This document shows, piece after piece, positions 1-4,316 of a DNA stretch of 35,216 bases. The notes under the pieces were generated by a model that made no database searches, was not told the DNA's origin, and saw only the letters and a program-made list of their open reading frames with translations. The position numbers were made by a program, and so were the translations under genes. Position 1 is the first letter of the stretch. The number at the start of each line of letters is the position of its first letter. The DNA is taken from the IMG/VR virus record IMGVR_UViG_3300027996_000096, positions 1 to 35,216 of that record, one strand, 5' to 3'. Origin of the DNA: a virus.

Positions 1-197
1 ACATCAGTTTAAATAAGCATGATTTAAGTCAATTAATTAAACAAATTGACCCAAGTTTGACACAAAAGCACAACAGATTACGTAATAAGTTCATATCATT
101 GCTACAAATGTTAATTGATTTTCCTATCTTGGTCAACACAATAACAACAGTAGACAAATACGAACATAATATTATACATAATCCTAAATACTTATAA
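1..197 (+). CDS. C-terminal fragment of an unrecognised protein
   Basis: The frame beginning at base 3 is open from the window edge to a TAA at 195-197, giving about 64 residues; the start lies outside. The fragment is hydrophilic apart from a short leucine/isoleucine-rich stretch and ends H-N-P-K-Y-L. No motif is recognised. Its stop shares base 197 with the next start (TAATG), which suggests coupled translation with the following gene. Confidence 0.6.
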   Translation, partial: ISLNKHDLSQLIKQIDPSLTQKHNRLRNKFISLLQMLIDFPILVNTITTVDKYEHNIIHNPKYL

Positions 198-481
198 TGA
201 TGAGCTTATTCGACCAAACAATACTAATATCATATACATTTGACGATGAAATGCTAAACCTATTTGGTATAGACAACAAAGAAAGATTAACAGATACATT
301 AACAATGGTATTCAACGATAACAATAAGGATATTAATGTTAACCTCGCATTCATTAAAGAATTAATGGATGAGACGACAATCTCTAGAGATGAAGCAATA
401 ATCTTAGCTTATCAAGCTGGTAAAATATATTCTGAAATAGAATATCTAAGACAAACAATACAAAGCTTCAACGACAATTAA
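197..481 (+). CDS. Small acidic protein of unknown function
   Basis: Predicted protein of 94 residues, acidic and rich in Asn/Asp/Ile, mostly helical in character, without a signal peptide, membrane segment or cysteines. I do not recognise a family. The start codon overlaps the stop of the upstream gene by one base (TAATG); a second ATG follows directly, so the start is uncertain by one codon. It is the last gene before the 2.5 kb gene-free structured region. No obvious terminator separates it from that region, so it could share a promoter with it. Confidence 0.65.
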   Translation: MMSLFDQTILISYTFDDEMLNLFGIDNKERLTDTLTMVFNDNNKDINVNLAFIKELMDETTISRDEAIILAYQAGKIYSEIEYLRQTIQSFNDN

Positions 482-590
482 AATTACATTCTTATCCCAT
501 AAACCGACCCACCGAAGGTAGCGGATAGAAATGACAATGTCAAGTATTTAATCATTAAATATGATTAAATGACAAAAGAATGACAAAACT

Positions 591-738
591 ACTTACTTAT
601 GCCAACAGGAATAGCTTTATGCTATTCTATGAGACATATATAATTGCCTTGACGTCGAGTCTTCAAGGTTACTACTAAATATCTGGGTAGTACTTGAAAT
701 TATATAGGAGCTGGAATGTACGCCAGTGATAAGTAAGT
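591..738 (+). ncRNA. 5' multibranched domain of the giant RNA
   Basis: A 10 bp perfect helix (591-600 with 729-738) encloses three branches: a hairpin at 609-627 with a 5-base loop, an arm closed by 638-645/698-705 that splits into two hairpins (647-668 and 671-691), and a hairpin with ends CTGG at 711-714 and CCAG at 723-726. This is a complete, self-contained fold, so the RNA probably begins upstream of 591. It lacks tRNA hallmarks. Confidence 0.7.
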
Positions 739-782
739 ATGATACTAGGGGCAACTGTGATAAGAGCAGTTAGCCCGTTCAA

Positions 783-893
783 ATTACTCTCATCCAATTT
801 GCAGGCAGTGGTATGCGTAGAAATACTCATATGTTAACTCCGTTGTAGGCGGACCAACGCAGGACAAGGATTGCAACCTTGTGAGAGTATAAT
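783..893 (+). repeat. Repeated RNA module, copy A
   Basis: Conserved 5' arm (783-805) and 3' arm (872-893) flank about 65 variable bases. The arms pair as TACTCTCA/TGAGAGTA (785-792/882-889), CAA/TTG and TTGCA/TGCAA, separated by internal loops whose sequence (TC on one side, CC on the other) is also conserved. The variable interior carries its own hairpin (CGTTG 841-845 with CAACG 855-859). Copy A has one extra T in the 5' arm compared with copies B and C. Confidence 0.85.
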
Positions 894-1056
894 ATTGTCT
901 TTGTACTATCTGAGTATAGCATTAACTATACAATAAGCGCGGGCTTAAATTACTTCAAGGAGTAATAGATAGATAGCATAACATTTAATGGGTTATGTGA
1001 GTGAGGTTCAACTCCTCTACAAAGATAAAGAGATTAAGAGTGGATTTGGAGATTTG

Positions 1057-1142
1057 CTAGTCATCATAACCCTTAATTAGGTACGTATGCAACCGCGCAG
1101 CCAGTATCAGCTTTTATAATATTACTCTCATCCAATTGCAGG
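1057..1142 (+). repeat. Direct repeat block, copy 1 (leads into module B)
   Basis: About 86 bases almost identical to 1426-1512, differing by three G/A or C/T substitutions in the central part, one short indel and small changes at the upstream edge. It includes CATAACCCTTAATTAGGTAC, a GC-rich centre, CAGTATCAGCTTTTATAAT and the complete 5' arm of module B. The similarity thins out upstream towards an AAGAGTGGA / AAAAGTGGA pair, pointing to tandem duplication of a unit of about 360-370 bases. Confidence 0.9.
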
Positions 1143-1243
1143 ATATAACAGTAATGCCAAGATTGATTTCCTCTGGTTTGTTAATATTAGGTGATGTCTC
1201 TGAACAGTTAAGCAAGACTATTAAAGCAACCTTGTGAGAGTAT
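1121..1243 (+). repeat. Repeated RNA module, copy B
   Basis: 5' arm 1121-1142 (identical to copy C) and 3' arm GCAACCTTGTGAGAGTAT at 1226-1243. The variable interior (about 83 bases) is unrelated in sequence to the interiors of A and C, while the paired arms and internal-loop bases are kept. That pattern is typical of a structured RNA domain with a variable hairpin insertion. Confidence 0.85.
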
Positions 1244-1425
1244 GATAAACTAGTCCACGGATAATTTGAGTGATTTCTTATTATCAAGGACAGGGAGGTT
1301 CCCCATGACGGCCCAGTAGCTAGTAATACTACGAATGTGGAGCAAGTAGGTAAATAGGCTGATTTAATCACAGTCTATTTGCTTGCTATACATTAAAATA
1401 TTAAAAGTGGAGTCCTGGTGACATA

Positions 1426-1512
1426 CTAGTTAGTCATAACCCTTAATTAGGTACATATGCAATCGCGCAACCAGTATCAGCTTTTATAATATTACTCTCA
1501 TCCAATTGCAGG
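1426..1512 (+). repeat. Direct repeat block, copy 2 (leads into module C)
   Basis: Second copy of the block at 1057-1142, starting about 370 bases further on. The substitutions relative to copy 1 are G to A, C to T and G to A in the segment GTACATATGCAATCGCGCAA. It runs directly into the 5' arm of module C. Confidence 0.9.
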
Positions 1513-1589
1513 TAAATTAACAAATGGACACAGTATTCCTTATGCATAAGGATACAAACCTTCAAGGTGCAACCTTGTGAGAGTATAAT
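1491..1589 (+). repeat. Repeated RNA module, copy C
   Basis: 5' arm 1491-1512 and 3' arm 1568-1589, the latter identical to the 3' arm of copy A over 22 bases (TGCAACCTTGTGAGAG then TATAAT). The interior is about 55 bases and includes TCCTTATGCATAAGGA, which can form its own hairpin. Copies A, B and C start 338 and 370 bases apart, so the spacing is not that of a CRISPR array. Confidence 0.85.
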
Positions 1590-2982
1590 TACTAATCCTT
1601 TACTCTTTTAGAATAGAAGTATTCTATTAGATGGAAAGTAAAGGTAGAACCATAACTCACAACGCACGTTGTTATGGTATCTTAAGAGTGCAAATTATAT
1701 ATACAAAGTTACTGAAAGACCCAGAGTGGTGCAGTAACAAGTGTTGGTATATATTCTGAAAACAAACGGCTATTAAACAAGAGATAAGGTTAGCAAAGGA
1801 ATAATAGAGGGCGGCAATCCTCTACCTTTAGCACTTATCTCTTGTTTTATACAAAGACTACCAACTTTTAGCTAGGGTTGGATAGTTTCAGCAGGCGTGA
1901 TATATCTAAAGGAGTAATTACCTGATTAGATATACCTGTTTCTGGGAAGGAGTTGGAAGCCATGCCCACTATTAGCTAAGACTTTAAAATCCTCATTAAA
2001 TCCAAGAGGTAGACAGTTGCAAATGTCTTTGGTGCTGATAAAAGTAATCTAAAATCGTATCGCAAATCGACTAGGAAAGAAATCTTCAGCTTATTTAGAA
2101 TGGTGAGAATCCATACAACGCTTAATATATGCCGTGGCTTATGTCTACCCTTGAGGTAGCATTAGTGTCCTACAGAATATATTCGTCAGCCTTCATGACG
2201 TTAGAATAAACCAGTAATGGTATAAACTGAAATTACTCTATGGATGAGTAATTTTGGGATGTGTAAGCATTTCATAGAAAGGTAATATAATATCTATAAT
2301 TTGGTAAGCTAGTGCTTTAACGAGTGATGCTTAGAATTATAGACAACTGAACAGGTCGGTTGTTGAGATAGAAATATCAATAAGAATTATATTAGGTAAT
2401 GGTAGTATAGTGTTGTCACACTTGAAGCTGTTATTAACTGACATTTTGATTTGGTTGTAGAAATACACTGATGTTGAATGTATCGTAGTAAGTAGCTTTG
2501 ACAAGCAAAAGCAGAACGAAGTTTAATCTAAACTCCCCAAAAGGTAGCACGATTATAAACTTCTAAGCGTCTTCGTTTAGTTCCCTGAATCCTTTAACTA
2601 AAATCTATGATTATAGAAAAAGCAAAATTAGTTTAGAAACTATTGAGTTACCATTAAGTTGGTTAACAATATTCTTATCCTGTTGTAATATACAGGTACA
2701 TGTAGACCGCAAGTCTTATTGTAAGAGGAATGAGTATTATTTAACTAGTAGCACGCAAGCTATTTACCTCGCAAGGGAGTTAGTAAGAAAAGGAATCTAT
2801 GTCCTCAATAGTAGTACCAGCAAATGGTTAAATTTGTGAATATGTTAAGAACTAAGTAGTAATACTTAGTGTGTGTAATGTCTAGAAATGGATTAAATAC
2901 TTAACGTAAAAGACGAACACTCAGTCTATTAATTTATTACAGCCGTGGGCGTGCTCGAAATTCATCGTACGTAGTGGCTTGA

Positions 2983-3011
2983 GTCATGTGAAAGCATGAC
3001 CTAATTTTTTA
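2983..3011 (+). terminator. Intrinsic terminator of the giant RNA
   Basis: A perfect 6 bp stem GTCATG (2983-2988) / CATGAC (2995-3000) with loop TGAAAG is followed by CTAATTTTTTA. It closes the structured region a few bases before the leader of the next gene. Confidence 0.7.
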
Positions 3012-3014
3012 TTT

Positions 3015-3030
3015 ATTAACCTTAAAACTA
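3015..3030 (+). promoter_or_regulatory. Conserved gene leader, copy 1 (ATTAACCTTAAAACTA)
   Basis: ATTAACCTTAAAACTA ends 7 bases before the ATG at 3038. The same element occurs before three further genes (3495-3510, 3797-3814 and 4386-4402), each time directly after a terminator-like hairpin or structured spacer and 5-7 bases before ATG. It may combine a phage promoter with the A-rich ribosome-binding leader usual in Bacteroidota. Confidence 0.65.
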
Positions 3031-3037
3031 TTGCGTT

Positions 3038-3430
3038 ATGTACAAAATTATAAACTTAAATGCCTTTTGTAAATACGAAGGTAAAACTCCTGAAATAGGA
3101 ATAGCTGTTGACGGATGCTTTGCATCAAAAGCATGGATCGAATCAGATGAAAAATTCAATGATATACTTGGAGAAAAATTCTCTTGGTATTCTCCAAATG
3201 ATGATAACTATTACTGTAACAGTAAATATTCATTCAGTAGACCTACTGAAGAAGAAGTAATTGATGAACTATGGGCTAATGATAATCTTGAAATATTAGC
3301 ATTAGAAAAAGGATTTGTACTTTGGGTAGATGAAAAACCTACTAAAGAAAATCCTCAAAAACATAATCATATTGATGAATCACATTGGCTCACAGAAGAT
3401 GTAGTCATGCCTGATTTAGGCAGTAAATAA
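3038..3430 (+). CDS. Acidic protein of unknown function, 130 aa
   Basis: Predicted 130-residue soluble protein, acidic and rich in aromatic residues, with a Y-Y-C-N segment near residue 60 and many Trp (W-Y, L-W-V, H-W-L). No signal peptide or membrane segment and no family recognised. The start follows the conserved leader ATTAACCTTAAAACTA by 7 bases. It is the first gene after the giant RNA and has its own unit: spacer and a new leader follow it. Confidence 0.75.
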   Translation: MYKIINLNAFCKYEGKTPEIGIAVDGCFASKAWIESDEKFNDILGEKFSWYSPNDDNYYCNSKYSFSRPTEEEVIDELWANDNLEILALEKGFVLWVDEKPTKENPQKHNHIDESHWLTEDVVMPDLGSK

Positions 3431-3494
3431 AACTAGAAAAGACGTGATATTCGTCGTATACCTAAGCAAGTAGACAAACTGCTATTTTATAAAT

Positions 3495-3510
3495 ATTAAC
3501 CTTAAAACTA
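3495..3510 (+). promoter_or_regulatory. Conserved gene leader, copy 2
   Basis: Exact copy of the 16-base leader at 3015-3030, placed 6 bases before the ATG at 3517. The spacer before it (3431-3494) holds a small hairpin GACG/CGTC near 3442-3456. Confidence 0.65.
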
Positions 3511-3516
3511 TATATT

Positions 3517-3735
3517 ATGCAAAGATTAACAATCCACTTAAGACAAGTTACTCCAGTAATGGAAGAAAGACTTGTAACTGTAATGAAAAATGATAAAAAG
3601 ACTAAAGAAATAAAGTCTATGACTGTCATTAAAAACACTATCGCTATTGAAGTAAAAACTCAAAACGATATTGACGCTCAACTAAAAAAATATGAACGTA
3701 ATATTAAGAAATTTTATTTATCTAATATTATGTAA
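3517..3735 (+). CDS. Small basic protein of unknown function, 72 aa
   Basis: Predicted 72-residue protein, lysine-rich, with alternating beta-like and helical character. The C-terminal half (about residues 40-65) is a charged helix with A-Q-L-K-K-Y-E-R. No cysteines, signal or membrane segment. The pattern would suit a small nucleic-acid or protein binding domain, but I do not recognise the family. A terminator follows immediately. Confidence 0.7.
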   Translation: MQRLTIHLRQVTPVMEERLVTVMKNDKKTKEIKSMTVIKNTIAIEVKTQNDIDAQLKKYERNIKKFYLSNIM

Positions 3736-3736
3736 A

Positions 3737-3795
3737 AAAGTAAGACCTTAACTAAACCAAAAGGGAAGAGATGAAACCTTCCCTCTTACTTTATT
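3737..3795 (+). terminator. Two-step hairpin terminator
   Basis: Outer stem AAAGTAAG (3737-3744) / CTTACTTT (3785-3792) and inner stem AGGGAAG (3762-3768) / CTTCCCT (3778-3784) form one coaxial hairpin directly after the stop at 3733-3735. The T tract after it is short (TTTATT), so it may be a processing hairpin rather than a strong terminator. Confidence 0.6.
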
Positions 3796-3796
3796 C

Positions 3797-3814
3797 ATTA
3801 ACCTTTTAAAACTA
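3797..3814 (+). promoter_or_regulatory. Conserved gene leader, copy 3
   Basis: ATTAACCTTTTAAAACTA, the same element with two extra T, 5 bases before the ATG at 3820. Confidence 0.6.
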
Positions 3815-3819
3815 CAACT

Positions 3820-4152
3820 ATGAAAAATATAATAATAATACTATTACTATTAAGTTCAACTCAAGTAGTAGGTCAATATAGTAAAGAAAAACCTAACTAT
3901 ACTGTAGGTATAGTAGGACTATCAGGATTACCTATTTCTTTTATTATTACTGAAATAAATTACAGTAATTTTGTAAGTAAATTTGGTCAAGGAACTCCTT
4001 ATATGGGAGATAACAAAGCATCTGCATATAATAGTATGATGAATAGAAATGACAGCATATTAATAACAGGAGCACTTGTAACAGTTGCAGGTCTTGTAAT
4101 ACAACATTTCATTACTAATAAAAAAAACAACAAGAAAACTTGTTTGAGATAA
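3820..4152 (+). CDS. Exported or membrane-anchored small protein, 110 aa
   Basis: Residues 1-18 form a classic short signal peptide (M-K-N, a run of Ile/Leu, then S-S-T-Q-V-V-G-Q). A Gly-rich hydrophobic patch lies at about 28-45 (V-G-I-V-G-L-S-G-L-P) and a transmembrane helix at about 85-100 (I-L-I-T-G-A-L-V-T-V-A-G-L-V-I), followed by a basic tail. The product should sit in the host envelope. Phage proteins of this kind can act in superinfection exclusion or lysis, but nothing here decides that. The start follows the conserved leader. Confidence 0.75.
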   Translation: MKNIIIILLLLSSTQVVGQYSKEKPNYTVGIVGLSGLPISFIITEINYSNFVSKFGQGTPYMGDNKASAYNSMMNRNDSILITGALVTVAGLVIQHFITNKKNNKKTCLR

Positions 4153-4168
4153 CCAAATGACATTATTA

Positions 4169-4206
4169 TGACATTTCTATCTAATAGATTTGTCACAGAA
4201 ATGTCA
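4169..4206 (+). other. Perfect 10 bp inverted repeat before the tRNA-like element
   Basis: TGACATTTCT (4169-4178) pairs perfectly with AGAAATGTCA (4197-4206), leaving an 18-base loop. No T tract follows, so this is a structural hairpin rather than a terminator. It lies 5 bases upstream of the tRNA-like acceptor stem. Confidence 0.65.
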
Positions 4207-4211
4207 CAAAT

Positions 4212-4292
4212 GCATATCAGCTCCACTTGTAGGACTAGTTGGTACGACTAAATAATATGTCAGAGAAGGTTCAAATCCTTCGATATGCACCA
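4212..4292 (+). tRNA. tRNA-like element with encoded CCA, anticodon not resolvable
   Basis: GCATATC (4212-4218) and GATATGC (4282-4288) form a perfect 7 bp acceptor stem, followed by A (4289) and an encoded CCA (4290-4292). The T arm is perfect: GAAGG (4265-4269), loop TTCAAAT, CCTTC (4277-4281). The D-loop signature AGTTGGTA is present at 4237-4244 but lies about a dozen bases too far from the acceptor stem, and only 46 bases separate acceptor and T arm without a proper 5 bp anticodon stem carrying a U33-type loop. The nearest candidate loop (TGGTACG, GTA in the centre) breaks the rules. It could be an unusual tRNA, a decayed one, or a tRNA mimic. Confidence 0.5.
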
Positions 4293-4316
4293 ACTTTTCT
4301 ACGCAATAGAAAGTTT

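Follow-up and report, generated by a model that had tools for sequence, protein, structure and literature searches.

The gene-free stretch at positions 482–3011 of the viral contig analysed here (35,216 bases, hereafter the window) probably consists of independent structured RNAs arrayed in tandem, with a GOLLD RNA in its 3′ part and copies of a small element, which we call m1, upstream (Table 1). The GOLLD part (2099–2936, about 840 nt, with a 5′ and a 3′ region) is identified from homology and transferred structure as a divergent member of that family. The first-pass annotation had proposed structured non-coding RNA for this stretch, which is borne out by double changes in 21 of the 24 pairs of the GOLLD 5′ core and in 7 of the 12 pairs of m1. 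It had left two possibilities, a single new giant RNA class or several RNAs in tandem, and had recognised no GOLLD; the tandem arrangement holds, with GOLLD at the 3′ end and m1 and other modules before it, while the single giant class does not survive the identification of 2099–2936 and the reordering of the upstream modules in other loci (L013, L065), and the statement that GOLLD is not present here has to be withdrawn in view of the window-free profiles and the structure transfer described below.

Table 1. Features of the non-coding RNA array and the evidence for each (R1, m1 covariance model; R2, covariance model of the GOLLD 5′ core).
Feature	Position	Strand	Evidence
Whole non-coding RNA array	482–3011	+	Gap between ORFs; GC and helix excess
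Structured module common to L131	577–731	+	E ~3e-8
m1 copy 1	784–890	+	R1 62.0 bits, E 1.6e-11; outside R1's 40 sequences
Module seen only in L065 among fetched loci, other order there	894–1036	+	
79-nt direct repeat, first copy	1064–1142	+	Second copy 1434–1512, 96% identical
m1 copy 2	1122–1243	+	R1 46.7 bits, E 3.7e-8; outside R1's 40 sequences
Module common to L013, partly to L065; long hairpin ~1342–1386	1247–1494	+	
m1 copy 3	1492–1586	+	R1 74.3 bits, E 3.2e-14; inside R1's 40, matches by construction
Module with 14-bp helix 1775–1847	1694–1855	+	Compensatory changes vs L013, L065
Conserved element preceding GOLLD	2099–2181	+	Relatives among fetched loci; without GOLLD in L109
Region assigned to GOLLD 5′, core 2177–2282	2177–2515	+	R2 and HMM, both without window
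Region assigned to GOLLD 3′, part modelled by Rfam RF02032	2516–2936	+	Window-free HMM; transferred pairs
Intrinsic terminator with GAAA tetraloop	2983–3006	+	GUCAUGU-GAAA-GCAUGAC + T run

The array is flanked by plus-strand ORFs, one ending at 481 and the next starting at 3038. Its longest internal plus-strand ORF has 42 aa (85 aa on the minus strand), which lies inside the range of dinucleotide shuffles (n = 300; median 54, 5–95%: 40–82), so that plus-strand ORFs are not scarcer here than expected by chance. The GC content is 0.354 vs. 0.292 in the remainder of the window, and a value of 0.34 is attained by 4 of the 127 downstream 500-nt windows. Perfect Watson–Crick stems of at least 8 bp (loop ≤80 nt) number 18, the longest of 14 bp (1775–1847), whereas 60 shuffles average 5.5 and never exceed 10. 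Folding energies on the plus strand give z-scores of –4.0 (482–1250), –3.3 (1245–2098) and –1.9 (2099–3011), with 20 shuffles each, but the minus strand of 2099–3011 reaches –4.25, which counts against arguing for a strand from energy alone. The lack of genes, the excess of perfect helices and the higher GC content reported in the first-pass annotation are therefore confirmed, as are its GNRA hairpin and its terminal terminator, which turn out to be one and the same element, the sole plus-strand terminator-like site detected in 1–4300. Rfam covariance models, a check proposed along with that earlier reading, returned no family at gathering in the window; three candidates obtained at E ≤ 5 over 400–3520 (mir-155, Pestivirus 3′ UTR and Afu_455) were rejected as far under their cut-offs. 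A search of a phage collection yielded nothing resembling the array at the limits applied.

The attribution to a crAss-like phage, also made from the letters alone, is supported by the encoded proteins: the window carries crAss-like replication genes (DNA polymerase, helicases, primase, Sak4-like annealing protein) and also encodes proteins similar to exonuclease VIII and RusA. A large protein encoded on the minus strand has counterparts in crAss-like phages, and these are partly annotated as RNA-polymerase subunits. No tRNA was found in the window. Beyond the array, similar leaders (ATTAACCTTAAAACTA-like) stand immediately before three start codons (3013–3035, 3496–3517 and 3795–3819), and a short conserved element (m3; 3434–3492), made of a GGACGUGAUAUUCGUC hairpin followed by a GAGCA...UGCUC-like hairpin and common to at least 24 fetched loci, lies past the first gene downstream of the array. 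Among the other loci, that of phi14:2 (L168, 9636–12081) has two DNA polymerase ORFs about 740 nt apart with one small ORF between them, possibly an intron.

Homologues of the last third of the array were found in L015, L053, L091, L118 and L128. A first profile of this block was made of six sequences, and one core string then gathered 69 viral stretches, all of which are matched at E ≤ 1e-3, some in part, by a profile rebuilt from 32 of the 70 sequences (31 loci plus the window). HMMs were computed from 17 loci belonging to records with an Rfam GOLLD match, the window being excluded and the location of the Rfam match inside the block being confirmed directly for L264 only (1646–2044, the whole model 1–416, E 8.2e-32). 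They match the window at 2185–2933 when covering both regions (E 1.1e-68) and at 2516–2933 when covering the 3′ part alone (E 9.5e-36 in the 35-kb window), while R2, also built without the window, matches the 5′ core with an E-value of 1.4e-16 and one non-standard pair. Through L264, 89 of the 98 GOLLD pairs of Rfam were carried to a 40-sequence alignment: 64 out of 87 form in the window (slid controls: 22–33 of 72–82), and 75% of the cells are paired across the 40 sequences (slid controls: 38–47%), some Rfam pairs being rare (L264 1661–1663 in 1–10 of 40, 1997–2002 in 8–24 of 40).

What characterizes GOLLD, i.e., a homologous 3′ region, the 3′ secondary structure and a separate, less conserved 5′ region of about 420 nt, is thus all found in the window. 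The exception is the curated cut-off, which is operational rather than structural: RF02032 gives no match in the window at E ≤ 1. The same model matches 17 of the 24 block-bearing records at E ≤ 3.4e-15 with 55–122 bits, and every match among these 24 records stays under the gathering score of 150 bits; besides the window, five of them are unmatched and one is matched only at E 0.68. The conserved element that precedes GOLLD does so in ten other fetched loci, and was also seen in L109 (3422–3502), where it stands before a gene and GOLLD is absent.

GOLLD is often found in tRNA islands and located in phages or prophages. Of our GOLLD loci, 7 out of 13 in one set and 5 out of 15 in another contain tRNAs. 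In L264 (2050–2111), a Pistol ribozyme starts 5 nt past GOLLD, and in L225 (3451–3512), near-identical to L264, it follows directly, whereas the distance from the GOLLD end is about 270–390 nt in L259 (1979–2040) and L237 (1434–1498). Altogether, Pistol reaches gathering in 4 of the 31 GOLLD loci scanned, some of which end soon past GOLLD, and its position suggests a possible self-cleaving 3′ end. The GOLLD 5′ core was further matched by R2 (E 2.5e-12) at 1924–2031 of L278, i.e., Prevotella phage Lak-B2 (MK250021.1), a 550-kb Lak megaphage.

The m1 element has a near-constant shell, composed of a 7-bp clamp (ACUCUCA/UGAGAGU), a conserved joint (AUCCAAUUGCAGG in the window, AUCCAAGCAGG elsewhere) and a conserved hairpin (CAAGG-RUUGCAA-CCUUG), which together surround a variable arm or interior. 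Two scans of viral contigs with a loose rule (five or more of the six pairs in the clamp, four or more of the five in the hairpin, the first scan fixing the 5′ strand of the clamp) recovered at least 160 instances in at least 144 sources; owing to this rule, the observation that they are 100% paired is partly due to construction, the double changes less so. For the alignment A1, from which R1 was computed, 40 of the 55 listed instances were used. None of 500 shuffles reaches as many pairs with double changes, while further pair types are unremarkable (84 of 500 shuffles as high). On the plus strand, the clamp and hairpin of the 40 aligned sequences show G-U cells and no A-C cells, one C-A cell occurring outside of them in the clamp of L029. 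A putative joint-loop pseudoknot is compatible with nearly all sequences, its pairing positions being invariant. The nearest upstream ORF shares the strand of m1 in 108 out of 120 cases, and the nearest downstream ORF does so in 103 out of 113.

Rfam 15 has no gathering match and no plausible match at E ≤ 5 for m1 in the window, and the sole families found at gathering across 10 m1 sources are tRNA and permuted tmRNA. Permuted tmRNA genes are found near the m1 regions of L013 (5115–5355; Rfam and ARAGORN) and L024 (3463–3817; ARAGORN). One match of R1 (L186, 1605–1714; E 2.1e-12) stands on a contig of 4.5 kb that is assigned to the MAG of an uncultured archaeon; this is a real m1, and the contig is probably misbinned phage DNA. 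The other 29 of the 30 genome-contig matches of the m1 5′ half were put down to chance (R1 E ≥ 0.066 or no match), as were two further R1 matches, one lying antisense within a CDS of crAss001 (E 0.0027) and the other in phi14:2 (E 0.52). Against isolate phages, the m1 query from L022 went unmatched and that from L107 gave weak, chance-like matches only.

Upstream of GOLLD, the array also contains four further modules (577–731, 894–1036, 1247–1494 and 1694–1855) with one or two relatives each among the fetched loci, and several of them are ordered differently in L013 (L206 being the same contig) and L065. In the last one, two helices keep their pairs relative to L013 and L065, some through substitutions on both sides (by eye). 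The interior of m1 copy 1 recurs in L065, in a copy that belongs to R1's 40 sequences, while the two copies of the 79-nt repeat lead into m1 copies 2 and 3. For the tiles 1590–1700, 1855–1985, 1975–2100 and 2930–3011, no relative was found among the fetched loci.

An alternative to the array is one giant RNA, in which GOLLD would bear a 1.6-kb 5′ extension and the modules would be covalently attached cargo, like the tRNAs proposed for the GOLLD linker. Such an RNA would agree with the lack of any plus-strand terminator-like site before 2983, with the proximity of m1 and GOLLD, at most 600 nt apart in L015, L053, L091, L118 and L128, and with the tRNA-like sequences inside the GOLLD linker of L217, L239, L267 and L272 (by eye; L217 also by Rfam). 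We nevertheless regard it as improbable: 24 of the 27 m1 records, which may be fragments, show no GOLLD core (the three that do include the window), GOLLD is preceded by m1 in L053 and L128 but followed by it in L015, and L013 and L065 have the modules in a different arrangement. Conversely, m1 was detected in at least two GOLLD records out of 23, in one of them at E 0.0067. Hence, the two systems are largely separate and come together in this array, and since they mostly occur in different phages, there is no support for a joint function. For the tandem array that we favour, the independent RNAs most likely share one transcript, which would be read toward the downstream genes and end at the terminator, and the GOLLD part is expected, from its homology to env-38 GOLLD, to form a closed RNA shell by self-assembly in the course of infection.

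The most variable part of m1 is its interior. By common 9-mers, the interiors fall into 80 clusters among the instances listed, an over-split figure, and a more sensitive comparison groups 127 distinct interiors into 53 clusters. To follow their exchange, we compared pairs from different single-m1 sources with gene families in common on both sides (n = 105), flank identity being that of the best match upstream or downstream, whichever was lower, over three ORFs on each side. When the flanks are at least 99.5% identical, the interiors are identical in all 13 pairs; below this value, the same family is found in 15 of 92 pairs, i.e., 1/2 (95–99.5%), 0/3 (85–95%), 1/8 (70–85%), 4/29 (50–70%) and 9/50 (<50%). 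With 156 of the at least 160 instances and the sensitive clusters, the corresponding figures are 16/16 identical and 15/111 in the same family, and with 9-mer clusters 16/16 identical and 7/112 in the same cluster. The close range rests on few pairs, since only five single-m1 pairs fall at 80–99.5%, of which one agrees (L067/L055) and four differ (L121/L110, L154/L119, L119/L094 and L149/L051). In L149 and L051, the 25 nt on either side agree and the shells differ by a two-base insertion in the joint, but the interiors are unrelated. Moreover, once identical instances are dropped, there are 95 pairs in which an interior cluster recurs in loci without common neighbours.

One interior family (11 sequences, two of them added by eye) covaries in its own arms, with 18 double-change cells out of 22 and no shuffle out of 500 as high for the whole. 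The interior is shown to switch to other families in place while the flanking genes and the shell stay, and an unused loop drifting freely would not account for conserved families that have unrelated replacements at the same place. Mimicry of the tRNA T-arm by the interiors was considered and rejected, a corresponding hairpin being found in 1 of the 80 clusters (L003, 9034–9150).

A second RNA of the shell type, m2, was observed near m1 in m1-bearing phages, e.g., L009 (minus strand), L034, L048, L081/L099 and L101, with 68 distinct sequences in 65 loci; pattern scans found none in the window. It is composed of UGCACCA, a hairpin (CUCAC-UUCCCAAGG-GUGAG or CCUGA-UUCCCAAGG-UCAGG), CAGUUGUAAUA...UAUUACAACUG and AGUGCAGAGG around a variable interior. 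By eye, changes in its outer stem match (UGCAC/GUGCA to UGUAC/GUACA). Like m1, it thus combines constant ends and a hairpin with a variable interior, but both its sequence and its stem order are different.

These observations lead us to a tentative proposal, to which we would grant a little less than an even chance: m1 and m2 may form a new phage RNA system, in which a constant shell stays in place and the interior is replaced wholesale from a common pool. The exchange of interiors could result from phage recombination acting on the near-identical shell sequences, a suggestion based on the Sak4-like, exonuclease VIII-like and RusA-like proteins of the window. As to function, our guess is that m1 is a putative constant handle with a diversified RNA surface; a phage or host factor would hold the shell and present this surface, as in arms-race decoys. 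If true, crAss-like phages would possess an exchangeable RNA-cassette system drawing on a pool of dozens of RNA families, likely under diversifying selection by hosts or rival phages, and in some cases standing in an array beside a GOLLD cage RNA.

The main rival to the constant handle is a processing element that cuts the array into its separate RNAs, for instance as a self-cleaving ribozyme or a nuclease signal, the interior being a tolerated loop. The small size of m1, its conserved joints and its placement between RNAs would fit such a role, and precedents exist in the Pistol ribozymes right next to GOLLD in L225 and L264 and in the theta ribozymes reported beside phage tRNAs (PMC10879173). 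We deem this explanation unlikely, as a merely tolerated loop sits badly with the interior family that covaries in its own arms, a separator sits badly with the single m1 copy of 21 of the 27 records, and m1 in the window matches no Rfam ribozyme. These records were chosen because a locus brought each of them in, and the copy numbers (two to four in the others) are lower bounds, given that 150 candidates were scored in large records and that records may be fragments. The same single copies speak against a mobile DNA element whose ends are conserved and whose RNA pairing is incidental, even though near-constant ends around exchangeable insides, interior clusters shared without common neighbours (the 95 pairs above) and repeats around m1 copies 2 and 3 are what a mobile element might leave behind. 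For such an element, it would be hard to account for a clamp and a hairpin that covary with G-U but no A-C on the plus strand, for the strand bias of m1 toward its neighbouring ORFs, or for the several pairs in which the interior changes while shell and flanks stay, which is the reverse of an insertion; we thus consider it very unlikely. The constant handle with exchanged interiors remains our preferred, if tentative, reading of m1.

Few RNAs are reported to form a protein-free cage, and GOLLD is among them. Our results would extend its range to a crAss-like phage whose copy the Rfam model misses, and indicate a copy in a Lak megaphage, while the 40-sequence alignment lets the cage interfaces be tested. 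For its part, the m1 shell with its changing interiors would make the purpose of such phage non-coding RNAs testable, because whatever drives the change of interior must act on the RNA or on its DNA. Among the matches listed in the open-access literature, we recognised no paper that places GOLLD in a crAss-like or Lak phage, associates it with Pistol or describes an m1-like RNA, which is weak evidence of novelty, since subscription papers are mostly outside of this scope.

Among known systems, m1 resembles the Pistol and theta ribozymes in being a small conserved RNA of phage RNA arrays, and differs from them by the lack of an Rfam ribozyme match in the window. Another comparison is with ROOL (RF03087), which PMC12286853 presents as a large, ornate phage RNA found near tRNAs; RF03087 matched none of 24 records at E ≤ 1, though the controls likewise gave nothing. 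The closest comparison is with env-38 GOLLD, an RNA of 833 nt with regions 1–420 and 421–833, for which the same paper reports a cryo-EM structure, a homo-oligomeric nanocage (14-mer), and tRNA-like sequences in the GOLLD linker (PMC12286853). The window block differs from known GOLLD RNAs in lying under the Rfam thresholds, where the Rfam model does not see it, in having no tRNA in the window, in being embedded in an array with m1 and, in some relatives, in being followed by a Pistol ribozyme. It shares with them a phage location, homologous sequence and base pairs, and, relative to the figures given for env-38, a similar length (about 838 vs. 833 nt) and a 3′ region beginning at a similar point (from about 418 vs. 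421), while some of its relatives sit in tRNA arrays and carry tRNA-like sequences in their linker.
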